IMG/VR virus record: IMGVR_UViG_3300010354_000899
Span: 1-20,164 of that record
Reading direction: 5' to 3' (one strand)
Source of the DNA: a virus
Length of the DNA: 20,164 nt
Numbering within the stretch: position 1 is the stretch's first letter; every line of letters begins with the position of its first letter. A program made the translations under genes and the position numbers. The notes beneath the pieces were generated by a model. It saw only the letters and a program-made list of their open reading frames with translations, did no database searches and was not told where the DNA came from. This document shows, in pieces, positions 7,601 through 18,692 of this stretch.

Positions 7601-9442
7601 TGCCACATATCGTGATTTCACCTTCGCATCTGACAAATTTTGTAGCGACGTGTTGATGGCTGGCAAAAAGTCTGGAGCGTTTTCTTCAAACTGTTGCTTG
7701 ATTCGCTCGCTCGTCGCCTTGATTTTGGCTTCTTTGTAGTCGATATCGGCAGACAGGATAATTCCAGATTGAGCGTATTTGATGGTTTCGTCAAGAACTT
7801 CGTTTACCTGCTTGATTCCCTTTGCTGTTCCAACAATTTCTTTTTCTCCGCCGAACATCTTGCCGAATATCCACTTCATCCCCTTGAATGCTTCAATGGC
7901 AAGCATGATGACCATTAGACCAACGCTTGCAACGGCAATCGCTTTTGAAACCATGGAAACAGATACGGCGACCATTTTGAGTGCGCCAGACAAAAGCGTG
8001 CTTGATGCAGTCCAGTAACCAAAAGTCTTAGTAACTGTTCCGGTGGCCGTAGTTGCGGTAACAGTGGCGGTCGTGTATCGCTGCACTTCTTTGGTGAGGG
8101 CGTTGTATCGGAATTGTGTGCCGAACAGGCTGATTTGAACGTTTGAGAACAAACGAATAAAAGCGGATTGTGTTTTAAGCAAAGTTGCAAACACCGTGAT
8201 TGCTATGGCAACAACTCCAACCAAGCGAATAAACGGAGCGGCAAACTTGTTCCCTGCAATTTTACCAACGAATTTTGCAACACCGGTAGCAAGTTTCAAA
8301 AGGTCGGCAACCAGTGGTTTCAATGAATCGCCGAGGTTAATAAGGGCGGCTTGTTGCTCGGCCAATGCGGTATTGAACTTTGCATCAATCGTTTGCGTAT
8401 ATGTCTCGAACGCATAATTCAAGTCGCCGCTCGCATTGTTCATTCGTTCAAAAATCACCGCATTTTCTTCTGCAGCAGGACCCATGAGCGAAAGGACTGC
8501 AGTCAACGCACGAACGTTACCGAATACCTTCGTGAAGTCAGAAGCATTTTCAACACCACCAAGGCGAGTGCTCAATTCCTGAAGTGCTGGGAAGAGTCCT
8601 TTTGTTTGCACGTTTTCGCGAATTTCTTCCGCACTTGTTCCGACCGCCTTCAGTGCTTCCGCACCTTGCTTTGACGGCTTCAGCAATTGAGACAGCGTCT
8701 GACGTACGTAGATGGCTGCTGTTCCTGCCGACAAACCACCTCGCGAGAGAGCGGCGATAGCGGCAGACACGTCTTCAAAACTTGCACCGAATGCAGCAGC
8801 GACTGGGAGAACCTTGCCGAGCGCCGGAGCGAAGGTGTCGGCTTCGGCCTTACCTTCTCGCACTGTCGCCACGAGGATGTCCGTTGCTTGTGCTGCGCTG
8901 TAGTTTTCTGTACCGTACGCATTGAGGGTCGACGTGACGGCATCCGCCACCGTTCGTGTATCTCCGAGGCCTGCGGCTGCTGCTTTAGCCGATGCCTCAA
9001 GCACTTCCATTGCGACTGTTGCATCTTTGATGCCGGCTGATGTTATGTAGTAAAGGGCGTCAGCGAGTTCCAATGGGGCGCGTGTCGTTTCTCCACCAAG
9101 TTTGAGAACCTGCTTGCGCATCGACTCCATCGAGTCGGTTCCAATGTTCACCAAACCCTTGATTCGGTTAAACGAAAGTTCAAACTGGCGGGACATTTGA
9201 ATTGCTTGTTTGCCAATGTTCATGAACGCGCCAGCAACTGTGTATTTCATCAACATCGCCGACTGGCGCATTGCGTCGCCAAGGGTTCGCGTAGAGATGG
9301 TTCCCATGGCCATCGTCTTGGACATCATGCTGCTTGTCCTTGTGACGTTGCTCATTGCGCGAGCAGCATTCGCAGCACCGGTAGTGGTGATGCGAATCGA
9401 TACGTTAATCGGCGGTACGCCGCCTGCTGCTGATGCCGGCAT
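4625..9442 (-). CDS. Tail tape measure protein
   Basis: A 1605-aa protein that sets tail length and is carried inside the tail tube. Residues 95-330 match the PhageMin_Tail/TP901 type (Ala-rich helical, with the TRAPLELADALYYITSAGI and GLSAGTAAIYVRQTLSQLL stretches). Two hydrophobic segments at about 401-424 and 490-518 are typical of tape measures and may act in DNA entry. A long helical region follows. Near the C-terminus is the family signature VGERGPEMFVP (about 1531-1541) after a Gly-rich GGPVSG loop. The start ATG has only a weak Shine-Dalgarno sequence, and the frame is closed just upstream, so the start is fixed. It lies directly after the assembly chaperones, the canonical siphophage order. 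By the usual 0.15 nm per residue rule the tail would be about 240 nm. Confidence 0.95.
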   Translation of the reverse strand: MPASAAGGVPPINVSIRITTTGAANAARAMSNVTRTSSMMSKTMAMGTISTRTLGDAMRQSAMLMKYTVAGAFMNIGKQAIQMSRQFELSFNRIKGLVNIGTDSMESMRKQVLKLGGETTRAPLELADALYYITSAGIKDATVAMEVLEASAKAAAAGLGDTRTVADAVTSTLNAYGTENYSAAQATDILVATVREGKAEADTFAPALGKVLPVAAAFGASFEDVSAAIAALSRGGLSAGTAAIYVRQTLSQLLKPSKQGAEALKAVGTSAEEIRENVQTKGLFPALQELSTRLGGVENASDFTKVFGNVRALTAVLSLMGPAAEENAVIFERMNNASGDLNYAFETYTQTIDAKFNTALAEQQAALINLGDSLKPLVADLLKLATGVAKFVGKIAGNKFAAPFIRLVGVVAIAITVFATLLKTQSAFIRLFSNVQISLFGTQFRYNALTKEVQRYTTATVTATTATGTVTKTFGYWTASSTLLSGALKMVAVSVSMVSKAIAVASVGLMVIMLAIEAFKGMKWIFGKMFGGEKEIVGTAKGIKQVNEVLDETIKYAQSGIILSADIDYKEAKIKATSERIKQQFEENAPDFLPAINTSLQNLSDAKVKSRYVASFLQTLFAGQTRETQKDLINFFAEYFTLDASAIQTALDQAGTARDVAFATSNKVTDAIINIGLVDAAAVSNNFTENMGKIDPAKGLQDFISRMSLADYNVSDQLGQFGKAFTEGIQRTGDFGPLLLAMDQFTSNADFMGQSAQEQSDIFAKTFGPALTGLTEEMDLVGDKFGNLRNLFLKKDNETVARRSIATMFGLDTQAEVDAMLSKLRKSMRGLDDGAAGNVKAFEILNKEYAVHRAAQGQTADGAERILSSVDDVAGKFESGLAPAVRDAVEAYDAATEAIKNYENGQRALMGLKLDAVQANMDFRDSLRDIGPAVKESGADISSGSENADKAKESIIKAAQSVLDVVNVAAASGDSAKATRALGQGTALIFAEGIKAGLSAGEIQALFDQIGFGPEIADTLLNEAEAVNKDSNGIGTAISNGIAEGIKAGEPALKAAAGAASETVIKAIKDTFAISSPSKRTEKEVGKPLAQGISVGFTNETKSGRFRGALSGALDSAMKSAFKSGGNKSLSMFMKNFLEKKGNVETPAQDFVQETMSRMKDIIGSLGSYIRSQLDFRKAKTDLAKLINMQRGLESRRQKALRSQSYAETRFGADGGAMVTGYEQAQLDALQLDFERVSRDYAMGRASYVDLVDAEIALFEARAAASEVSDEVLNAQNASVDAAVNIENAQLEVASATVKILESYQDLQEAAANLYMNHTELNKVYNDLATATGIASGKLQVGSVDLTTIGTSAGTFVSTVGGYVNAMGVEVDTTKTKFDSKMLGPAGVFGQLTSIGTNADIMTKAVGASFVNMGKGLIDPNSEFASILKSMGPSIAKAIEIGANERFAKSPLQLKIPVDVIISSSGGGKKDDSKPADDTDLGGDTLGDLTKGGFYSAGRGGYYVRDVNTGKVKFVGKAVGGPVSGMSPYMVGERGPEMFVPKVSGTIVTTSALERYTRTNDSKGAASSAAPANNIVVTVNNPVPAAAEDSITRRMKVLANSGLFG

Positions 9443-9457
9443 ACGAGTATTTTCTCA

Positions 9458-9493
9458 TAGCCTTGTCAAATACGCAAACGACGAAAAAGGCTA
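9458..9493 (-). other. Inverted repeat between chaperone G-T and tape measure genes
   Basis: Arms TAGCCTT (9458-9464) and AAGGCTA (9487-9493) are exact 7-base complements with a 22-base loop. One arm contains the stop codon of the frameshifted chaperone. It lies where the tape measure ribosome-binding site should be, and that gene has no good Shine-Dalgarno sequence, so the fold might limit its translation. The loop is long and chance cannot be excluded. Confidence 0.35.
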
Positions 9494-9718
9494 GGTCTTG
9501 TTGACAGCCAATCCCATCTGGGCAGCGAATGCCATGAGTTGTTCAGCGCCAGCGCGCTGCTTCATCCAGCCTTTTGCTTCAAAGACTGCTCCGACTTGAG
9601 CCGGGCTTAGTTCCCAGAAGATTTCGAGCGACTGGCCCGTTTGGGCCCAGAGTCCGTACCACTGTGCCCAAGGGAGTCGTTGTCCTCGTTCTTGTCCAGC
9701 GCCTCGTTGAGTAGTCTT
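9491..9718 (-). CDS. Tail assembly chaperone, T extension (reached by -1 frameshift)
   Basis: A 75-codon extension in the -1 frame relative to the chaperone gene upstream. It is expressed only if ribosomes slip near 9717-9723. The product would be a 214-aa G-T fusion: 139 aa from G and then about 75 aa. The extension has the features expected of the second half of such chaperones, a Trp-rich stretch (LPWAQWYGLWAQTGQ) and then EIFWELSPAQVGAVFEAKGW, close to the FWxLTPxE motif of siphophage G-T proteins. It ends 48 bases before the tape measure gene. G-T proteins bind the tape measure and recruit tail tube subunits. An ATG at 9799 in this frame exists but encodes an Arg/Gln-rich shadow, so independent initiation is unlikely. 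Confidence 0.75.
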   Translation of the reverse strand, partial: KTTQRGAGQERGQRLPWAQWYGLWAQTGQSLEIFWELSPAQVGAVFEAKGWMKQRAGAEQLMAFAAQMGLAVNKT

Positions 9719-10134
9719 TTTTGTTCTTCGGCGAGTTGGGCGCTGTTTGCGAGCATCCGACTCGCCACGGTAGGGTCCACGCCGTTGGCAATTGCCCATG
9801 CCGCTCCGATGATGTTGGAGTAAGTGACAACTTCTCCGTCGAGCATCGCTTCGCCGATTTCTTCCACGTCTTTCTTCAGCGCGAAGGCAAGAGTCTGTCG
9901 AATGGTGTTGACGGGAAGTTTTTCAAGTTTTTCCTGCCATGCTTCAAGACCGCCGAAGTGGTCTTCGATGTCGGCGATGCTGTTATTGGTGAAGCGAACG
10001 AACGTCGACTCAATGATGTCGTCACCGTCTTCGGTCATCTCGCGCACCCAGACGTTCTCTGGTTGCACTTTCTTGACCTTGTAGAAGCGGATTGAAACAG
10101 ATTTGTTCTTTAGGATTGTGGGTGTATAGTCCAT
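9607..10134 (-). CDS. Tail assembly chaperone G
   Basis: A 175-aa soluble protein lying between the major tail protein and the tape measure gene, the invariant place for siphophage assembly chaperones. I chose the ATG at 10134 (MDYTPTILKNK) over the ATG at 10200. The extra 22 residues of the longer version would be encoded by the hairpin that follows the tail tube gene, and they do not look like protein. Upstream of 10134 only a distant GGCAGG resembles a Shine-Dalgarno sequence, so the start is not certain. The protein is acidic in the middle (AWQEKLEKLP, KKDVEEIGEAM) and ends in a Ser/Lys/Arg-rich low-complexity tail, which is replaced by the T domain after frameshifting. Confidence 0.8.
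   Translation of the reverse strand: MDYTPTILKNKSVSIRFYKVKKVQPENVWVREMTEDGDDIIESTFVRFTNNSIADIEDHFGGLEAWQEKLEKLPVNTIRQTLAFALKKDVEEIGEAMLDGEVVTYSNIIGAAWAIANGVDPTVASRMLANSAQLAEEQKRLLNEALDKNEDNDSLGHSGTDSGPKRASRSKSSGN
9716..9723 (-). promoter_or_regulatory. Probable -1 programmed ribosomal frameshift site
   Basis: The minus strand reads C-AAAAAA-G, with zero-frame codons CAA AAA AGA. The next long open frame, carrying the T domain, is exactly -1. A P-site Lys tRNA on AAA re-pairs perfectly after slipping back one base. The A site would move from AGA to AAG, so this is not a textbook X-XXY-YYZ heptamer. It is still the only homopolymer run in the overlap and the best candidate I found there. Confidence 0.6.
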
Positions 10135-11742: not shown

Positions 11743-11991
11743 CTAGGCGTGAGGTGGGTTGTCTTGTTCGACTTTGCTGAACACTTCGTTGACTTCTTCT
11801 TCGGACAACTTTCCGTCAGTCAGGAAGGCGCGAGCCAGCCCTTCAAGCACATTCGCCACGCCGCCGATTCCGGCCATAAATATGGCCTTCTCCATCGACA
11901 CGCCAGCAATGGTGCCGGCGCCAATGACGCCAAGACCAGTCACGATGAAAGTTGCGAAGATTCGCAGGATTACGTTTTTGATGAGTTCCAT
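11743..11991 (-). CDS. Holin-like small membrane protein (downstream member)
   Basis: An 82-aa protein with two likely membrane helices, about residues 8-30 (ILRIFATFIVTGLGVIGAG) and 33-52. A charged C-terminal tail follows (DGKLSEEEVNEVFSKVEQ), a pattern common in actinophage holin-like proteins. It lies immediately before the endolysin, whose ribosome-binding site overlaps this gene's stop codon, so the two are probably co-translated. The predicted role is the membrane hole that lets the unsecreted endolysin reach the wall. The ATG has no clear Shine-Dalgarno sequence, and a 10-bp hairpin lies 17 bases upstream. It could be a holin, an antiholin or a pinholin, and sequence alone does not decide. 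Confidence 0.68.
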   Translation of the reverse strand: MELIKNVILRIFATFIVTGLGVIGAGTIAGVSMEKAIFMAGIGGVANVLEGLARAFLTDGKLSEEEVNEVFSKVEQDNPPHA

Positions 11992-12362: not shown

Positions 12363-14548
12363 TCGCTTTTCTTCTCCATCAATCTCTTCATCAAATCCTT
12401 TACGAGCGATTGTTGCTCGACTTCATCGCCTTCAGTTACTGCGTCAACAACAGTGCGTTTTGCATCGACCAAATCGTAGATATCTTCATCAATTGTTCCT
12501 GATGCAAGCAAGTACCAAGCCTGCACGTTGTTCTTTTGTCCGATTCGGTGGCAACGGTCTTCTGCTTGGTCGTGCTCACCTGGTGTCCAACCCATCTGAA
12601 CGAACACAACGTCTGAGCCTGAGGTCAATGTAATACCAACACCACCAGCCTGAAGGTTGAGCACGATGACTCTTGCGGCGGGGTCGTTTTGGAAAGCATC
12701 AACAGCAGCCTGTCGCTCTTCCAGGGAGTCTCTTCCGCTCACACGGAGATTGCCGTACTTCTCGGCAAGGTGGTCTACTACGTCAACATTGTGGGCAAAC
12801 ACAACCAATTTACGGTCACAAGACTCAAGGAAAGAATCAATCCATTCCTCAACGGCGTCCATTTTCGCCCATGCCGCAAGACGCTTGAGAACTTGCGTCC
12901 TTGCTAGGTGTTCTCCAGAGTCTTTTGCCTTATATCCATTCTCCCTAAGAAACAGCACCAAGTCGTTCTCTGCAGATGAGTAATCCTTGTGTCCTTTGCC
13001 TGCCGGTTCCAAGTGGACGATGTTGCGGCTCTTGTCCGGGAGTTCTTTCAGCACTTCGTCTTTCGTGCGACGGATGTAGCAGTTCTGCCTCAGTTTGGTG
13101 TTGAGTTCGATGAGGTTGCTTGCGCCGCTGGTATCCCATCCGAAACCATTGTGATAAGCGCCTGCATATCGCTTCAAGAACGCCCACTTTCCACCGAAAC
13201 GACCGAGCATCCCCATGATTTCAAGTTGACTGACCAGTTCTGACGGACGATTCGTTACCGGAGTTCCGGACAGCAATAGAACGCTTCCGGAGTTTGGAAC
13301 CATTTCGGCTATGTCTTTTGCGGCCTTGGTGCGCTTTGATGCAGCCGTCTTTACGTAATGCGACTCGTCCAATACGAGTCCATTGATTCCCAAGTGTTCG
13401 ATTGCCTCCACGAATTTGTACAAAATGTCGTAGTTCACTACGTTCACATCGCACGAAACTATATCCGTTTTGCCAGACACGATGTTGACCGTTCGGTGCG
13501 GCAACCACTTGTTTATTTCGCGCCTCCAGTTCTCTTTCAGCGAGGCAGGGCACACTATGACGGCAGGGAAGGCATCACGCATTTCAAGCGTCGCTATTGC
13601 TTCTACCGTCTTGCCAAGACCCATCTGGTCCGCAACAAGACATCTTCCCACCGATGACGCATACGCCACTCCGGCCTTCTGATAAGGCATCAAAGTGCCC
13701 GAAAGGTTTGGCACATTGATATCTGCATCGGTTGAGGCTGACTTCTCAAGCAATTCTGCTTCCCGCTTTGCAGAAGTAAGCAGCGTCTTGCGAAGGCTTT
13801 CTGACATTGAGAATCCGTACTTGTCTGCTATTTCAACGACCGACAAAACCGGTGGAGTTGACCAGACCTTCTTCTTGGCGTCCCACAGTCGACCAGGAAT
13901 TGCCTTGATGTCTGCGACGATGTCTGGATGATAAGCAAATTCAAAGAGCAGACGCCCGCTCTTGGATGTGGTTATCTTGCGTTCTTCTTTTTGTGTTTGT
14001 TGCATTGTTGTGTTCATGTGATTGAGTTCTTCCGATGGGACAAATCCGTACTGGGAGACAAGTTTAGCGACATCCTCAGAACTTGACAAGGGGGCAACCC
14101 AGACGAGTGCCTTGTTGTTCCATGAGACTCCGGGTATTTTTCTAATTTCTTCTATAAGTTGTTCGTCGTATTCGCAACGAACCACGAACAAATCTCCGTT
14201 GCTCGATACGGTATTTCGTGCTGAGGCGTTGGTTGATGAAATCATTTCATTGAAGCCGTAGGTGAAGTCGTCTGGGCGCATTGGAGTGGGAATGCTGTCG
14301 TATGGAATGCCAAGACCAGAAAGTTGCCCTTGATACTTTGCAAGCATTTTCCATGCTTCATAAATGACCACTTGGTTCCATTTAGATGGGGGAACTAAAG
14401 CCAGCATGGTGCCGTACCTGGCATCCGCCTTGTTGAAACCTATTCCGTCGGTGGATTCAGCACCGTCACAAATTCCGGCAAGCGTGCGTATCGCTTTTAC
14501 AAGCAGCGACGCGTCGTAGCCGTCTATTTGTCGTTCAGGTTTGACCAC
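12359..14548 (-). CDS. SNF2-family helicase/ATPase with tandem HARP-like repeats (SMARCAL1-like)
   Basis: A 729-aa superfamily 2 ATPase that probably remodels or anneals DNA at forks or recombination intermediates. The motor is complete: motif I DQMGLGKT (307-314), motif II DESH (394-397), motif III LSGTP (426-430), motif V region QAGGVGITLT (633-642) and motif VI QAEDRCHRIGQ (661-671). Before it are two related repeats, about 119-170 and 199-246, each with a strand, a helix ending in IPG, W and (V/K)W, and a final YGF. They resemble the HARP/substrate-recognition domains of SMARCAL1-type annealing helicases. The first 80 residues carry DGIGFNKADARYG and KMLAKYQGQL, seen in other phage and bacterial helicases. 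The start is GTG with a weak AGG, overlapping the upstream gene by 25 bases, so translational coupling is likely. Confidence 0.93.
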   Translation of the reverse strand: MVKPERQIDGYDASLLVKAIRTLAGICDGAESTDGIGFNKADARYGTMLALVPPSKWNQVVIYEAWKMLAKYQGQLSGLGIPYDSIPTPMRPDDFTYGFNEMISSTNASARNTVSSNGDLFVVRCEYDEQLIEEIRKIPGVSWNNKALVWVAPLSSSEDVAKLVSQYGFVPSEELNHMNTTMQQTQKEERKITTSKSGRLLFEFAYHPDIVADIKAIPGRLWDAKKKVWSTPPVLSVVEIADKYGFSMSESLRKTLLTSAKREAELLEKSASTDADINVPNLSGTLMPYQKAGVAYASSVGRCLVADQMGLGKTVEAIATLEMRDAFPAVIVCPASLKENWRREINKWLPHRTVNIVSGKTDIVSCDVNVVNYDILYKFVEAIEHLGINGLVLDESHYVKTAASKRTKAAKDIAEMVPNSGSVLLLSGTPVTNRPSELVSQLEIMGMLGRFGGKWAFLKRYAGAYHNGFGWDTSGASNLIELNTKLRQNCYIRRTKDEVLKELPDKSRNIVHLEPAGKGHKDYSSAENDLVLFLRENGYKAKDSGEHLARTQVLKRLAAWAKMDAVEEWIDSFLESCDRKLVVFAHNVDVVDHLAEKYGNLRVSGRDSLEERQAAVDAFQNDPAARVIVLNLQAGGVGITLTSGSDVVFVQMGWTPGEHDQAEDRCHRIGQKNNVQAWYLLASGTIDEDIYDLVDAKRTVVDAVTEGDEVEQQSLVKDLMKRLMEKKSD

Positions 14549-14994: not shown

Positions 14995-15013
14995 CTCGTT
15001 GAGTGGTTGTGTT

Positions 15014-15036
15014 GTCCGTCTAGTCTACAGACAGAC
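15014..15036 (-). other. Hairpin in the leader of the hypothetical/helicase pair
   Basis: On the transcribed strand GTCTGTCT pairs with AGACGGAC (8 bp, one G-U) around a 7-base loop. It contains TAGAC twice in 10 bases, a word that also occurs in the gaps near 10864 and 17579-17600. There is no U-tract downstream. It may be an operator or an RNA structure between the surface-protein gene and the next unit. Confidence 0.45.
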
Positions 15037-15044
15037 ACGAACAT

Positions 15045-17549
15045 TTACTCGCCGTCTGGCTCTTTCATGTGCAGCCACATTGCAGCGGCAATTGCAAGGA
15101 CTGTTGAGATACCTGCAATTTTCTGAATAGGCCCAGACAAAGTTAAATAAACAACAAGTGAGCCTGCAATCGTGAAGCCCATGTTCATGAGCCCGTACGA
15201 GAACTTCTTGAAGAATGCTTTCCAGTTCATCACTTTCACCCCATTGACGTACTTAAAGATGCTGATGTTCTTTATCCAATCTAAACCATCGCCGGCAATC
15301 TCTCCTTGAGGCTCTTCTTCTTCATCATCTCGTCTAGCCGCCGTGTCCTGCTTTGTGGACGGTGCATTTGGCCCAGAAGATGACGGTGAGCCGCCAGTCA
15401 TACCTCCAGAGGCAGTCATTGATACTGCGGCTGCAGAGGTAAGAAGTCCCGCTGCGATAACAGTACGTCGCTCGCCGACACTGATGTTTTGATTCAGCAT
15501 TTTGTATCCGTCAAATGCTCCTTGGAACAGGTCAACAACATCTTCAAAGACCTCACGGACATCAGATGGCGCTTCTTGCACGGCATCCACGATTTGTTCG
15601 GCAACCTCTTCGGTCAACTGTTCTGCCTCTACGCTCTCAAAAACCTGTTCTGCCTGTTCAGTACTTACCGACTCAAGAACCGCCGGATTTGAAGCAAGAG
15701 TCGCCGCTACTTCTTCGCTCACTCCAGCCTCAATAACGGCCGCGACAACAGCAACAATCTGCTCTTTTTGCTCTTCCGTAAGTTCCTTTGGGTCTTCTAC
15801 TTCTGTAATGGCATCAAGAACCTCTGCGACAACCTCCGCAATCTTGTCTTCTGGTACCGACTCAATCAGGTCGGCCACAACCTCTGCCGTCTCTTCCGGA
15901 GATGCGTCCTGAAGTTCGGAAACAGCCTCTTCTACGGCCGCAGAAACCTCTGCATCTGTCTCTGGTACCGTTGGTTCCTGTGCGACAGGCTCTTGGTCTT
16001 CTTGCTCTTGGGGTAATTCTGTTGTTTCAGATGGCTGTTGTTCTTGCCCTGGCTCTTCGGGGCTCTCTGGAAGAGTCGTATCTGGAGAAGCATCGTCGGG
16101 GGTAGTCGGTGTCGTTGTTTCGGCTTCTTCTTGAGGCACTTCGGTCGTGGTTGTCGTTGAATCGGGCTCTTCGGGAATGGTCGTCTCGACAGGCTCAGGC
16201 TCAGTGGTCGTCGTCACCGGAACGGGAGCGGGCTCGGTCGTTGTTGTCGGAGGAACAGTCGTTGTCGGGAGAGGCGCTTCCGTCGTCGTCGGAGCGGGGG
16301 CTTGAGTCGTAGTCGTCTGGGGCTGAGGTGCCCCGGTTGTTGTTGTTGTTGTTGTTGTTTCTGGAACCGTAGTAGTCGTAGTGGTACTAGTGGTAGTAGT
16401 CGTGGTCGTAGTTACTGGCTCGTCAACATACCATTCGGCTGGAACAACCGCCCAGTTTCCTCCATCTGTGTAATAAAGAAGTTGGACAAACGCGCCACCA
16501 CCGTTCTCGTAGAACCAGAAAGTTATTTGTTTTTGTAGGCCATCAGAGAAGTCTGCATCTGCCGTTTGGCCACAGCCTCCACCACGGTCGTACCAGTCGT
16601 CGATAACTGTTACTCCGTCTAGAATGACACGTGAACCATCGTCAGATGCAGCACATAGGTAGTACATCTGTGCAGTCGGGGGCTTGATGTAGCCCATGAA
16701 TTTTATGACTACATCATCAGATATCCCAGTGTTGAAAATTTGTCCACCGCTCCATGCTTGGTTAATCGACGCAACAGTTCCAGTAGCGATTATTGGTGTC
16801 GTTGGGGGAATCGGCGGAGAAGCGTTGTACTGATTGAACTGTCCAGTTCGATTGTCATAGACCCAGTAATTCAGACCGCTTGTTGCTGCAGATTGCTGAG
16901 GAACGGTAGTAGTTGTCGTCGTAGTAGTTGTCGTGGTGGTGGTGCTAGTCGTAGTGGTGCTGGTCGTGGTTGTAGTGGTGGCAGAAGAAACATCTTCGTA
17001 AATCAAGGTATCCAAGAAGTAAATGTCTCCTCCATATGCGGGGAGTCTGAACCTGGAAATGGTCGTTCCGTTGCCCTGAAAAGAAACAACCCTGTAGTAG
17101 CCGGGTCCTTGGCATGTTTCGCACCCAGCCGTGAGAACTGAATTGCCCAATGTCAGAGATTCTGTTGTCCCGTCCGAGTAGTAAACCGTCGCCGTTTCGT
17201 CACCATTTTTTGCTCCGATGACAAAACTGAAACTGCGTGTGTTGGAGCCGTCCGGGAAAAAAATATCTAGTGGGGCAGTTGGACTTCCGGCATAAAGTGC
17301 CATCCCAGAAGTCCCGTAGTTGCTACCCATATTGGCGTAATACCAACCGCTTTGATTGCTAGTCGTAACAGCAGTATCGCCGCTTATCTTTACCAGCACT
17401 CCAGTGGTTGGACCAGGGCCCTCAAATCCTTCTGTTGTCGATGCCGCCATCGCATCGCGTGATGGCGCGAATCCACCAATAAGGATGGTCAAGATAGCGA
17501 CAAGCCATGCCAATGCTTGAATTTTACGCGTCTGATTTTGCGGCCACAT
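15045..17549 (-). CDS. Secreted, membrane-anchored PA14 surface protein with poly-Thr linkers
   Basis: I chose the ATG at 17549, giving 834 aa. A TTG at 17561 would add 4 residues, and neither start has a clear Shine-Dalgarno sequence. Positions below count from the TTG. A signal peptide (about 5-39: basic TRK, a hydrophobic LAWLVAILTILIGG core, AMA cleavage) is followed by a beta-rich domain (45-190). Next is a Thr/Ser linker (195-219) and a PA14 domain (about 225-380) with the Asp-rich sugar/calcium loop SDDGSRVILDG. A Thr/Pro/Glu linker follows (383-530). Acidic helical repeats (535-680) lead to a helix at about 698-716 and a final membrane pair at about 790-808 and 812-830. It looks like a cell-surface lectin or adhesin rather than a virion part. 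The linker style suggests an actinobacterial origin. It starts 48 bases after the glycosyltransferase gene. Confidence 0.85.
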   Translation of the reverse strand: MWPQNQTRKIQALAWLVAILTILIGGFAPSRDAMAASTTEGFEGPGPTTGVLVKISGDTAVTTSNQSGWYYANMGSNYGTSGMALYAGSPTAPLDIFFPDGSNTRSFSFVIGAKNGDETATVYYSDGTTESLTLGNSVLTAGCETCQGPGYYRVVSFQGNGTTISRFRLPAYGGDIYFLDTLIYEDVSSATTTTTTSTTTTSTTTTTTTTTTTTTVPQQSAATSGLNYWVYDNRTGQFNQYNASPPIPPTTPIIATGTVASINQAWSGGQIFNTGISDDVVIKFMGYIKPPTAQMYYLCAASDDGSRVILDGVTVIDDWYDRGGGCGQTADADFSDGLQKQITFWFYENGGGAFVQLLYYTDGGNWAVVPAEWYVDEPVTTTTTTTTSTTTTTTVPETTTTTTTTGAPQPQTTTTQAPAPTTTEAPLPTTTVPPTTTTEPAPVPVTTTTEPEPVETTIPEEPDSTTTTTEVPQEEAETTTPTTPDDASPDTTLPESPEEPGQEQQPSETTELPQEQEDQEPVAQEPTVPETDAEVSAAVEEAVSELQDASPEETAEVVADLIESVPEDKIAEVVAEVLDAITEVEDPKELTEEQKEQIVAVVAAVIEAGVSEEVAATLASNPAVLESVSTEQAEQVFESVEAEQLTEEVAEQIVDAVQEAPSDVREVFEDVVDLFQGAFDGYKMLNQNISVGERRTVIAAGLLTSAAAVSMTASGGMTGGSPSSSGPNAPSTKQDTAARRDDEEEEPQGEIAGDGLDWIKNISIFKYVNGVKVMNWKAFFKKFSYGLMNMGFTIAGSLVVYLTLSGPIQKIAGISTVLAIAAAMWLHMKEPDGE
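16336..16359 (-). repeat. (GTT)8 trinucleotide repeat in a poly-Thr linker
   Basis: Eight GTT units on the + strand encode consecutive ACA Thr codons in the second linker. The surrounding Thr codons are mixed (ACC, ACT, ACG), so this pure stretch is the part most likely to vary in length. Confidence 0.7.
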
Positions 17550-17578
17550 TTGCCGCGACAATAATGAAACTATTCAGA

Positions 17579-17600
17579 TAGACGTGATATCACGCGTCTA
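17579..17600. promoter_or_regulatory. Near-palindrome before the surface protein gene
   Basis: TAGACG (17579-17584) and CGTCTA (17595-17600) are complementary and enclose the perfect palindrome CGTGATATCACG (17583-17594). The outer arm contains the glycosyltransferase stop codon. Compact symmetry of this sort suggests a dimeric regulator site controlling the surface protein, or an RNA hairpin. No U-tract follows. Confidence 0.45.
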
Positions 17601-18692
17601 CATGTTATGTATGGCCCTGAAAACTTCCACCCAAGATTTTGCTGTGGCAGAAATAGAGAACTTCTTTTCCACTATCTCCCTGTTCAAAACTGATTCGTCT
17701 TCGCGAATTTTTATATCCATCAGTTCATCCATGTGCTTTTGCCATTCTTTTGCGTTTTTCGCAACGCGGCCTACGCCATTTTCGGCAAGGAATCTATATT
17801 CTGGCAAATCAGACGCAACGAATGGAATTCCCGCTGCTGCGTATTCGATACCCTTGATAAATGACTTGGCGCGATTAAAAGGAATGTCATTGAGGGGGAC
17901 TATCCCGATATCAAAGTGGTTGTATGCCTCTGGCAATTGATACAGGGGAACCATTGGCGAGGCTGTACAACGTTGTTTGTTTTGGATTCCCAATTGCAAA
18001 AACGCCGGCGGGGCCCACGGTATATGTCCGGCGTGATGAAATATCAAGTCGCGTGATTCGATGTATTTGGGAAAGAAGTCGGCGATGGCCTCTAGGTCTT
18101 TAGAGCGCCATGGTGTTGCTCCAAGCCACCCAATTATCGGCTTTCGCTTTACTACGCTCAGCCTTTTCCATCTGTCTATGTCTATTGCGTTACGCACGAC
18201 GAACATTGGTTTGCTCGGATACATCTTTCGGTAGTACTCCTCGATGAACGGAGTTGAACAAATCAAAGCGTCAGCCTCGGCAATTATTTGCTTGTAGATT
18301 TCCCTGTTGCGGTCTTTGTTTTTGTCTGGGTCAGTCGATGAAGCAGCAAAATTTGTCTCGTGAATTTCATCAAATAAATCGTCAATGTCTACGACTATTT
18401 TTTGACCTCGCGCTTTGCAGAATGGAATAGCCTCCAAGGCGACCCTATCCATAACGACTTTTAAGACAATAATGCTGTGATTGTCTGCTCGCGTATTGTT
18501 GGTCCTTGTTATCGAGAATCCTGCATTCTCTCGCTTTGATAGCATCCCAACCGTTGAATGTATGCCGGCAATATTGAGTTGCTGTGCTGGGAGCATGCAA
18601 CGGTACCAGGTACATCCATTCGGGACAACAAACCCGTCAACACGTGACCAGTCGGTTGAAGCAAATCCTACGCTAAGCCGTCTGGTTTGCAT
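17598..18692 (-). CDS. Glycosyltransferase, GT-B fold (GT4-like)
   Basis: A 364-aa cytoplasmic enzyme that should move a sugar from a nucleotide-sugar donor to an acceptor not identifiable from sequence. The N-terminal acceptor half has VDIDDL (101-106). The C-terminal donor half opens with NAID (168-171) and IGWLGA (187-192), and carries the GT4 donor-site block around 277-300 (KGIEYAAAGIPFVASDLPEYR-like, with Glu283). There is no membrane segment or signal peptide. It starts at ATG with no convincing ribosome-binding site and is followed after 48 bases by the Thr-rich surface protein. It is preceded by tail-fibre genes. Possible acceptors are the Thr-rich linkers of that protein, the glycine-rich fibre, or a host wall polymer, and I cannot choose among them. 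Phages often carry such enzymes to decorate virions or alter host surfaces. Confidence 0.88.
   Translation of the reverse strand: MQTRRLSVGFASTDWSRVDGFVVPNGCTWYRCMLPAQQLNIAGIHSTVGMLSKRENAGFSITRTNNTRADNHSIIVLKVVMDRVALEAIPFCKARGQKIVVDIDDLFDEIHETNFAASSTDPDKNKDRNREIYKQIIAEADALICSTPFIEEYYRKMYPSKPMFVVRNAIDIDRWKRLSVVKRKPIIGWLGATPWRSKDLEAIADFFPKYIESRDLIFHHAGHIPWAPPAFLQLGIQNKQRCTASPMVPLYQLPEAYNHFDIGIVPLNDIPFNRAKSFIKGIEYAAAGIPFVASDLPEYRFLAENGVGRVAKNAKEWQKHMDELMDIKIREDESVLNREIVEKKFSISATAKSWVEVFRAIHNM

Follow-up and report, generated by a model that had tools for sequence, protein, structure and literature searches.

The window analysed here is the whole of IMG/VR virus record IMGVR_UViG_3300010354_000899 (20,164 bases), and its minus strand encodes a protein, named S, which by its anchor profile is a member of a large uncharacterised family common to aquatic actinophages and some actinobacterial chromosomes. 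We have high confidence in the display anatomy of S (signal peptide, outer domains, stalks and membrane anchor), and the protein probably changes the infected cell's surface. Moreover, sequence comparison indicates that the outer domains, which are often of lectin or carbohydrate-binding type, are swapped between phages on Thr-rich stalks over a constant anchor. The gene of a glycosyltransferase (GT) precedes that of S, and an earlier note on this DNA had joined the two in a module that coats the infected cell with a glycosylated lectin-like protein. What the note saw in the sequence is confirmed here, while its reading holds only in part.

Anatomy of the surface protein

The features of S and GT are as follows (aa, amino acids; CBM, carbohydrate-binding module; TM1, the transmembrane helix of the anchor):

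15045..17561, minus strand: S, predicted secreted membrane-anchored lectin-like surface protein, 838 aa from TTG or 834 aa from ATG at 17549
17445..17549, minus strand: signal peptide of S, residues 5-39, cleavage site between AMA and AS (sequence and hydropathy)
16986..17438, minus strand: N-terminal beta-sandwich of S with CBM-like fold, residues 42-192 (AlphaFold model, Foldseek)
16896..16979, minus strand: poly-Thr linker 1 of S, residues 195-222, mixed Thr codons
16413..16886, minus strand: PA14 domain of S, residues 226-383, invariant DDG at residues 307-309 (Pfam, alignment, PDB profile matches)
15927..16412, minus strand: Thr/Pro/Glu-rich linker 2 of S, residues 384-545, Thr tract at residues 384-412
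15471..15860, minus strand: helical membrane-proximal domain of S, about residues 568-697, then a conserved V-G-x-R-R motif (model, A6 profile)
15411..15479, minus strand: TM1 of S, about residues 695-717 (hydropathy, model helix)
15066..15224, minus strand: C-terminal membrane hairpin of S, about residues 780-832, fused in window S (model helices)
17598..18692, minus strand: GT, cytoplasmic GT4-like glycosyltransferase, 364 aa, phrog_7162 family (Pfam, PHROG)

The signal peptide, whose absence the earlier note had named in advance as grounds for rejection, was present by hydropathy and the AxA rule: a basic stretch is followed by a hydrophobic core (residues 14-32) and the cleavage site. The beta-rich domain expected at residues 40-190 models as a CBM-like sandwich: the AlphaFold model of residues 42-192 had ten strands (predicted local distance difference test, pLDDT, 67), and Foldseek matches were weak (template modelling score about 0.5 or less), many of them to carbohydrate-binding modules (CBM6, 11, 16, 29 and 61). 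This N-terminal domain was seen in S-family proteins only.

The PA14 fold, whose absence was another such ground, was recovered by profile (PF07691, E 3.5e-7; 30.6 bits vs the curated cut-off of 24). Its DDG was invariant across 11 aligned phage PA14 copies and aligned with the DDG of the Marinobacter Lap PA14 (PDB 6m8m); in PA14 lectins a consecutive Asp pair holds the sugar-contacting Ca ion (PMC8092209). Both the N-terminal and the PA14 domains are predicted, at the level of fold and motif, to be sugar-binding. Compared with the sugar-binding PA14 adhesins (Marinobacter Lap and Marinomonas MpPA14), S shares the beta-sandwich family by profile and the invariant Ca-holding DD dipeptide, while its domain stands on a phage-encoded membrane-anchored protein, and the comparison of binding residues covers the DD pair.

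The Thr tracts of the two linkers described earlier span residues 195-222 and 384-412. Both mix the four Thr codons in scrambled order, which rules out a DNA triplet expansion and means that the Thr run is maintained at the protein level.

As for the anchor, the C-terminal membrane helices of the earlier note resolved, by hydropathy and model, into one helix and a helical hairpin: in the model of residues 568-838 the helical domain (pLDDT up to 95, against 74.8 for the whole model) is followed by the membrane helix, a linker that is acidic and disordered, and the hairpin. The anchor fold found no match below E 0.3 in the PDB and only uncharacterised phage proteins in BFVD, and none of the members scanned gave a convincing Pfam family for the anchor domain. 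A sortase motif of the LPxTG/LAxTG type before the C-terminal helix was absent from the S sequence. In contrast, a PA14 protein of a Rhodoluna metagenome-assembled genome has LADTG and then a helix at its end, and a sortase-like gene follows (L131:4761-6389), that is, a bacterial PA14 surface protein with another anchor. A holin function of the hairpin was judged unlikely, as the window has a separate possible holin gene (11743-11991).

Could S be a transmembrane sensor that reports glycan binding outside via TM1 to the inner linker and hairpin? The best match of the PA14 profile in the PDB was RsgI3, an anti-sigma factor (2e-33), ahead of the Marinobacter Lap adhesin (3e-7), and the segment on the inner side of the membrane is conserved (GEIAG..., SI[FY]KY), with the hairpin either separate or fused. 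However, no signalling domain was recognised, and 18 of the 45 complete S proteins among the loci listed missed the fused hairpin, several of them ending just past TM1. We thus consider a sensor very improbable.

A family with exchanged outer domains

An anchor-profile scan of viral contigs kept at least 79 loci, with 54 non-redundant S proteins at 90% identity, 45 of which were complete; all counts are lower bounds. The signal-peptide rule (hydropathy plus AxA) was applied to the 45 complete proteins, with 250 other open reading frames (ORFs) of at least 250 aa from the same loci as controls. Among the loci listed, the rule was passed by 43 of the 45 complete S but only 6 of the 250 controls, a Thr/Ser run of six or more was found in 42/45 vs 7/250, and the R[RK] motif was present in all 45. 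The hairpin was a separate small ORF in phage loci L058 (9389-9652), L065, L070, L145 (6763-6954) and L147; small two-helix membrane proteins directly after an S without fused hairpin (L136, L058, L145) were weakly like phrog_29041. At L063 the protein appeared split over two overlapping ORFs (7650-8171 and 8149-9786) with the signal peptide on the first, reflecting a frameshift or an assembly error.

The outer domains, on the other hand, varied among members: L-type lectin (L012, L020 and L149; E 6e-43 in L149), C-type lectin (L089; 6e-5), SUEL lectin (L149; 1.5e-7) and PA14 (L046, L147 and others; 1.5e-12 in L147). The exchange shows in a comparison with the nearest relative, L089/L009 (104.8 kb). 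Flanking proteins (the 156-aa neighbour, the helicase and the major tail protein) were 94-99% identical, while DNA similarity ended at base 16412, exactly the boundary between linker 2 and PA14, past which the S of L089/L009 has a C-type lectin and other parts instead of PA14. Similarity between the window and L018 ended at the identical base.

The family has a link to fibres, which bears on whether S itself is a virion protein (fibre or spike). Fibre-type genes stood within 5 kb of S in 33 of the 54 loci listed (many loci are cut on one side, making this a lower bound), and the outer part of the L052 S has beta-propeller-like repeats in common with tail-fibre-like proteins (26-30% identity); WTTRTSNFG repeats related to this outer part occurred in the tail-fibre-like proteins of L007/L088 and L098. 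A virion role is nevertheless very unlikely given the signal peptide in nearly all members, the membrane helices and the relatives on bacterial chromosomes; furthermore, window S had no match in PHROGs at 0.1 and no virion family. The architecture thus fits the earlier expectation of an exported, membrane-anchored, lectin-like protein at the cell envelope.

A literature search found no description of the S family, and the sole annotated phage record with a long S match, DSL-LC01, lists it as hypothetical.

Relatives on bacterial chromosomes

Profile A6 detected S-like genes in actinobacterial genomes: 1 of 397 in a sample of the phylum, 2 of 248 in a sample of the order, 14 of 201 in one family and 2 of 37 in another. 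Five of these relatives (L136, L139, L159, L161 and L162), read from their sequences, lie near DnaK/DnaJ, GroEL/TsaD or metabolic genes, and such housekeeping contexts place them on the chromosome. Like window S, these surface proteins have a signal peptide, Thr-rich linkers, the helical domain, the RR motif, TM1 and the hairpin (in L136 as a separate 92-aa ORF, 13348-13626). Unlike S, they are bacterial genes, they carry RCC1, DUF4082 or PARCEL in place of lectins in the outer part, and no window-type GT stood beside them in the contexts read.

An anchor restricted to phages had been considered, since a pattern-based scan of 84,980 species genomes came back empty; the later profile search found the actinobacterial copies, so that the negative scan was a limit of method. 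The direction of transfer between phage and bacterium was not ordered by trees of the short anchor domain, which offer few columns. The helical domain (about residues 568-697), the two-part anchor, the bacterial-chromosome relatives and the exchange of outer domains all go beyond the earlier note.

The neighbouring glycosyltransferase

GT is GT4-like, as had been claimed: it scored above the cut-off for Glyco_trans_1_4 (PF13692; E 1.9e-7, 31.9 vs 27) and matched phrog_7162 (E 3.1e-34), while its N-terminal PF13439 stayed under the cut-off (22.7 vs 28.5). Seven members entered the family alignment. The 48-base gap between GT and S was also correct, counted from the likely start of S at ATG 17549.

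The partnership of the two genes is another matter. GT adjoined S in two arrangements: i) in the window clade, upstream of S and often as two tandem GTs, an adjacency kept in six or seven phages; and ii) in another clade, downstream of S with PhyH and methyltransferase-type genes. Together with the short gap, these would suit a GT that glycosylates the Thr-rich linkers of S, so that a glycosylated lectin coats the infected cell. However, the arrangements together account for just 9 of the 54 loci listed, and GT was undetected in 17 of 23 S-bearing records (which may be fragments). The Thr tracts were no shorter where GT was missing, and bacterial relatives also have Thr-rich linkers without an adjoining GT in the contexts read. 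As for the linkers as O-glycosylation substrates of the neighbour, precedents point both ways: known O-mannosylation in actinobacteria is performed outside the membrane by Pmt (PMC12757957), while the streptococcal enzymes GtfA/GtfB add sugar to Ser/Thr-rich adhesins in the cytoplasm (PMC7661464). The streptococcal serine-rich repeat adhesin loci resemble the S locus in having a Ser/Thr-rich stalk, a binding domain and an adjoining cytoplasmic GT; they differ in that the S window has no accessory Sec genes seen (no match to SecA2, SecY2 or Asp among the window ORFs scanned, the contig being a fragment), an inconstant GT linkage and no cell-wall sorting signal. Sequence evidence thus supports the two-gene glycosylation module only in part, any action of GT on S being putative, and we regard the glycosylated coat as unlikely.

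GT relatives were found in other settings. In 17 GT-bearing records S was detected by A6 in four, always away from the GT locus; in one of the records, L114, GT (8989-10071) lies directly upstream of head-tail adaptor and tail sheath genes, ~38 kb from S. The GT relatives of L098 and L088 follow tail-fibre-like genes. The occurrence of GT relatives among virion genes with no S nearby means that the GT family has an existence independent of S. In L113, L119 and L123, myovirus-like records similar to L114, GT relatives also stood among head-tail and tail-sheath genes, which suggests virion glycosylation in aquatic phages.

GT may therefore decorate virion proteins or envelope glycans. That it glycosylates virion proteins, and adjoins S only through a common fibre/late-gene region, is a sizeable possibility though short of probable, and virion proteins are no less likely than S to be glycosylated by it. 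Glycans occur on the major capsid proteins of F1 mycobacteriophages, which also encode GTs, and virion glycosylation has been proposed for these phages (PMC11256854). These GTs, thought to glycosylate capsids, are like window GT in being phage-encoded, and relatives of the latter lie among structural genes; the comparison is one of role and gene location. Against virion glycosylation, window GT is nearer to S than to any obvious capsid gene, and the proposal draws on gene positions and family matches.

Genome context

The record is of class linear and thus probably a fragment. On the minus strand GT (17598-18692) comes first and S (15045-17561) second, both upstream of a siphovirus tail part (minor tail protein, Dit, tape measure and major tail protein), a VanY/PG_binding endolysin, the possible holin gene and an SNF2 helicase. 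A same-strand endolysin lay within 5 kb of S in 37 of the 54 loci listed, again a lower bound as many loci are cut on one side.

Between GT and S stands a near-perfect palindrome (TAGACGTGATATCACGCGTCTA, 17579-17600), present in one copy in the window; 6 of 100 shuffles also matched. It was rejected as a terminator, as its RNA fold was not above shuffles (z -0.34). A stem-loop directly downstream of S (14995-15044) folded better than shuffles (z -2.34). No hexamer upstream of S exceeded shuffles, Rfam gave no match for RNA elements, and PADLOC gave no meaningful match for an anti-phage defence gene. Genes of 2OG-Fe(II) oxygenases recurred near S and GTs, often several consecutively (46 ORFs in 18 S loci, as neighbour cluster 4, and also in L095-L099).

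Proposed lectin display and receptor masking

How would S act? We propose that S is exported via Sec and retained in the membrane of the infected cell, from which the PA14 and CBM-like domains would face outwards. With less certainty, the lectin would most likely bind the infected cell's own glycans, because tail-fibre and endolysin genes neighbour that of S and because the outer domains change fast, as receptor-binding modules do. It would thereby mask the receptor, which would hinder superinfection and keep progeny from being trapped on debris. Taken whole, our best explanation is that the phage has its own copy of a lectin display protein of host type, which probably masks envelope glycans; to this we give slightly less than even credence; masking of the receptor, predicted from domain content and gene position, is put forward more tentatively.

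To our knowledge, few phage proteins are known to alter the infected-cell surface. A precedent is T5 Llp, which the phage exports and which blocks its receptor; phages are also recognised to pay a price when they adsorb to infected cells or to debris (PMC9586334). The likeness between Llp and S is one of working only, both being exported phage products at the infected-cell envelope; Llp is an early periplasmic lipoprotein, whereas S is a large multi-domain lectin-type protein.

Several points weigh against receptor masking: i) superinfection-exclusion proteins are usually early (PMC9586334), while the neighbours of S are late-type genes; ii) the CBM-like model has only moderate confidence (pLDDT 67); iii) the topology of S comes from hydropathy, and a conserved RR just before TM1 is odd for an external segment; iv) the likeness of the L052 repeats to tail fibres is merely 26-30% identity; and v) the bacterial relatives suggest an ordinary adhesin role in which phage receptors need not be involved.

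In the main alternative S binds in trans, making infected cells, or fragments of them, adhere to other cells, to particles or to grazers, so that phage encounter rates change. A lectin on a flexible stalk is a typical adhesin design, the Marinobacter Lap adhesin is among the PDB matches to the PA14 profile, and the bacterial relatives resemble ordinary surface proteins (RCC1, PARCEL, DUF4082). Yet the sequence evidence for trans binding is identical to that for binding in cis, and location by fibre and lysis genes is uninformative on it. Such adhesion is on the unlikely side, though close behind masking of the cell's own glycans.

Beyond the masking proposal, aquatic actinophages and their hosts may have in common a lectin display platform, so far undescribed, to which S would belong, a wider idea that we offer as conjecture at somewhat less than even odds. 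Its constant anchor (the new helical domain, TM1 and a fused or separate hairpin) would carry glycan-binding domains shuffled at linker boundaries, each phage thereby reprogramming the sugar recognition at the surface of the cell it infects. If true, phages of freshwater actinobacteria would possess a large family of lectins that are membrane-anchored, exchangeable and related to proteins encoded on bacterial chromosomes; this would offer a testable route to how these phages control superinfection, the loss of progeny on debris or contacts between planktonic cells, and many genes now lacking annotation would gain a meaning.

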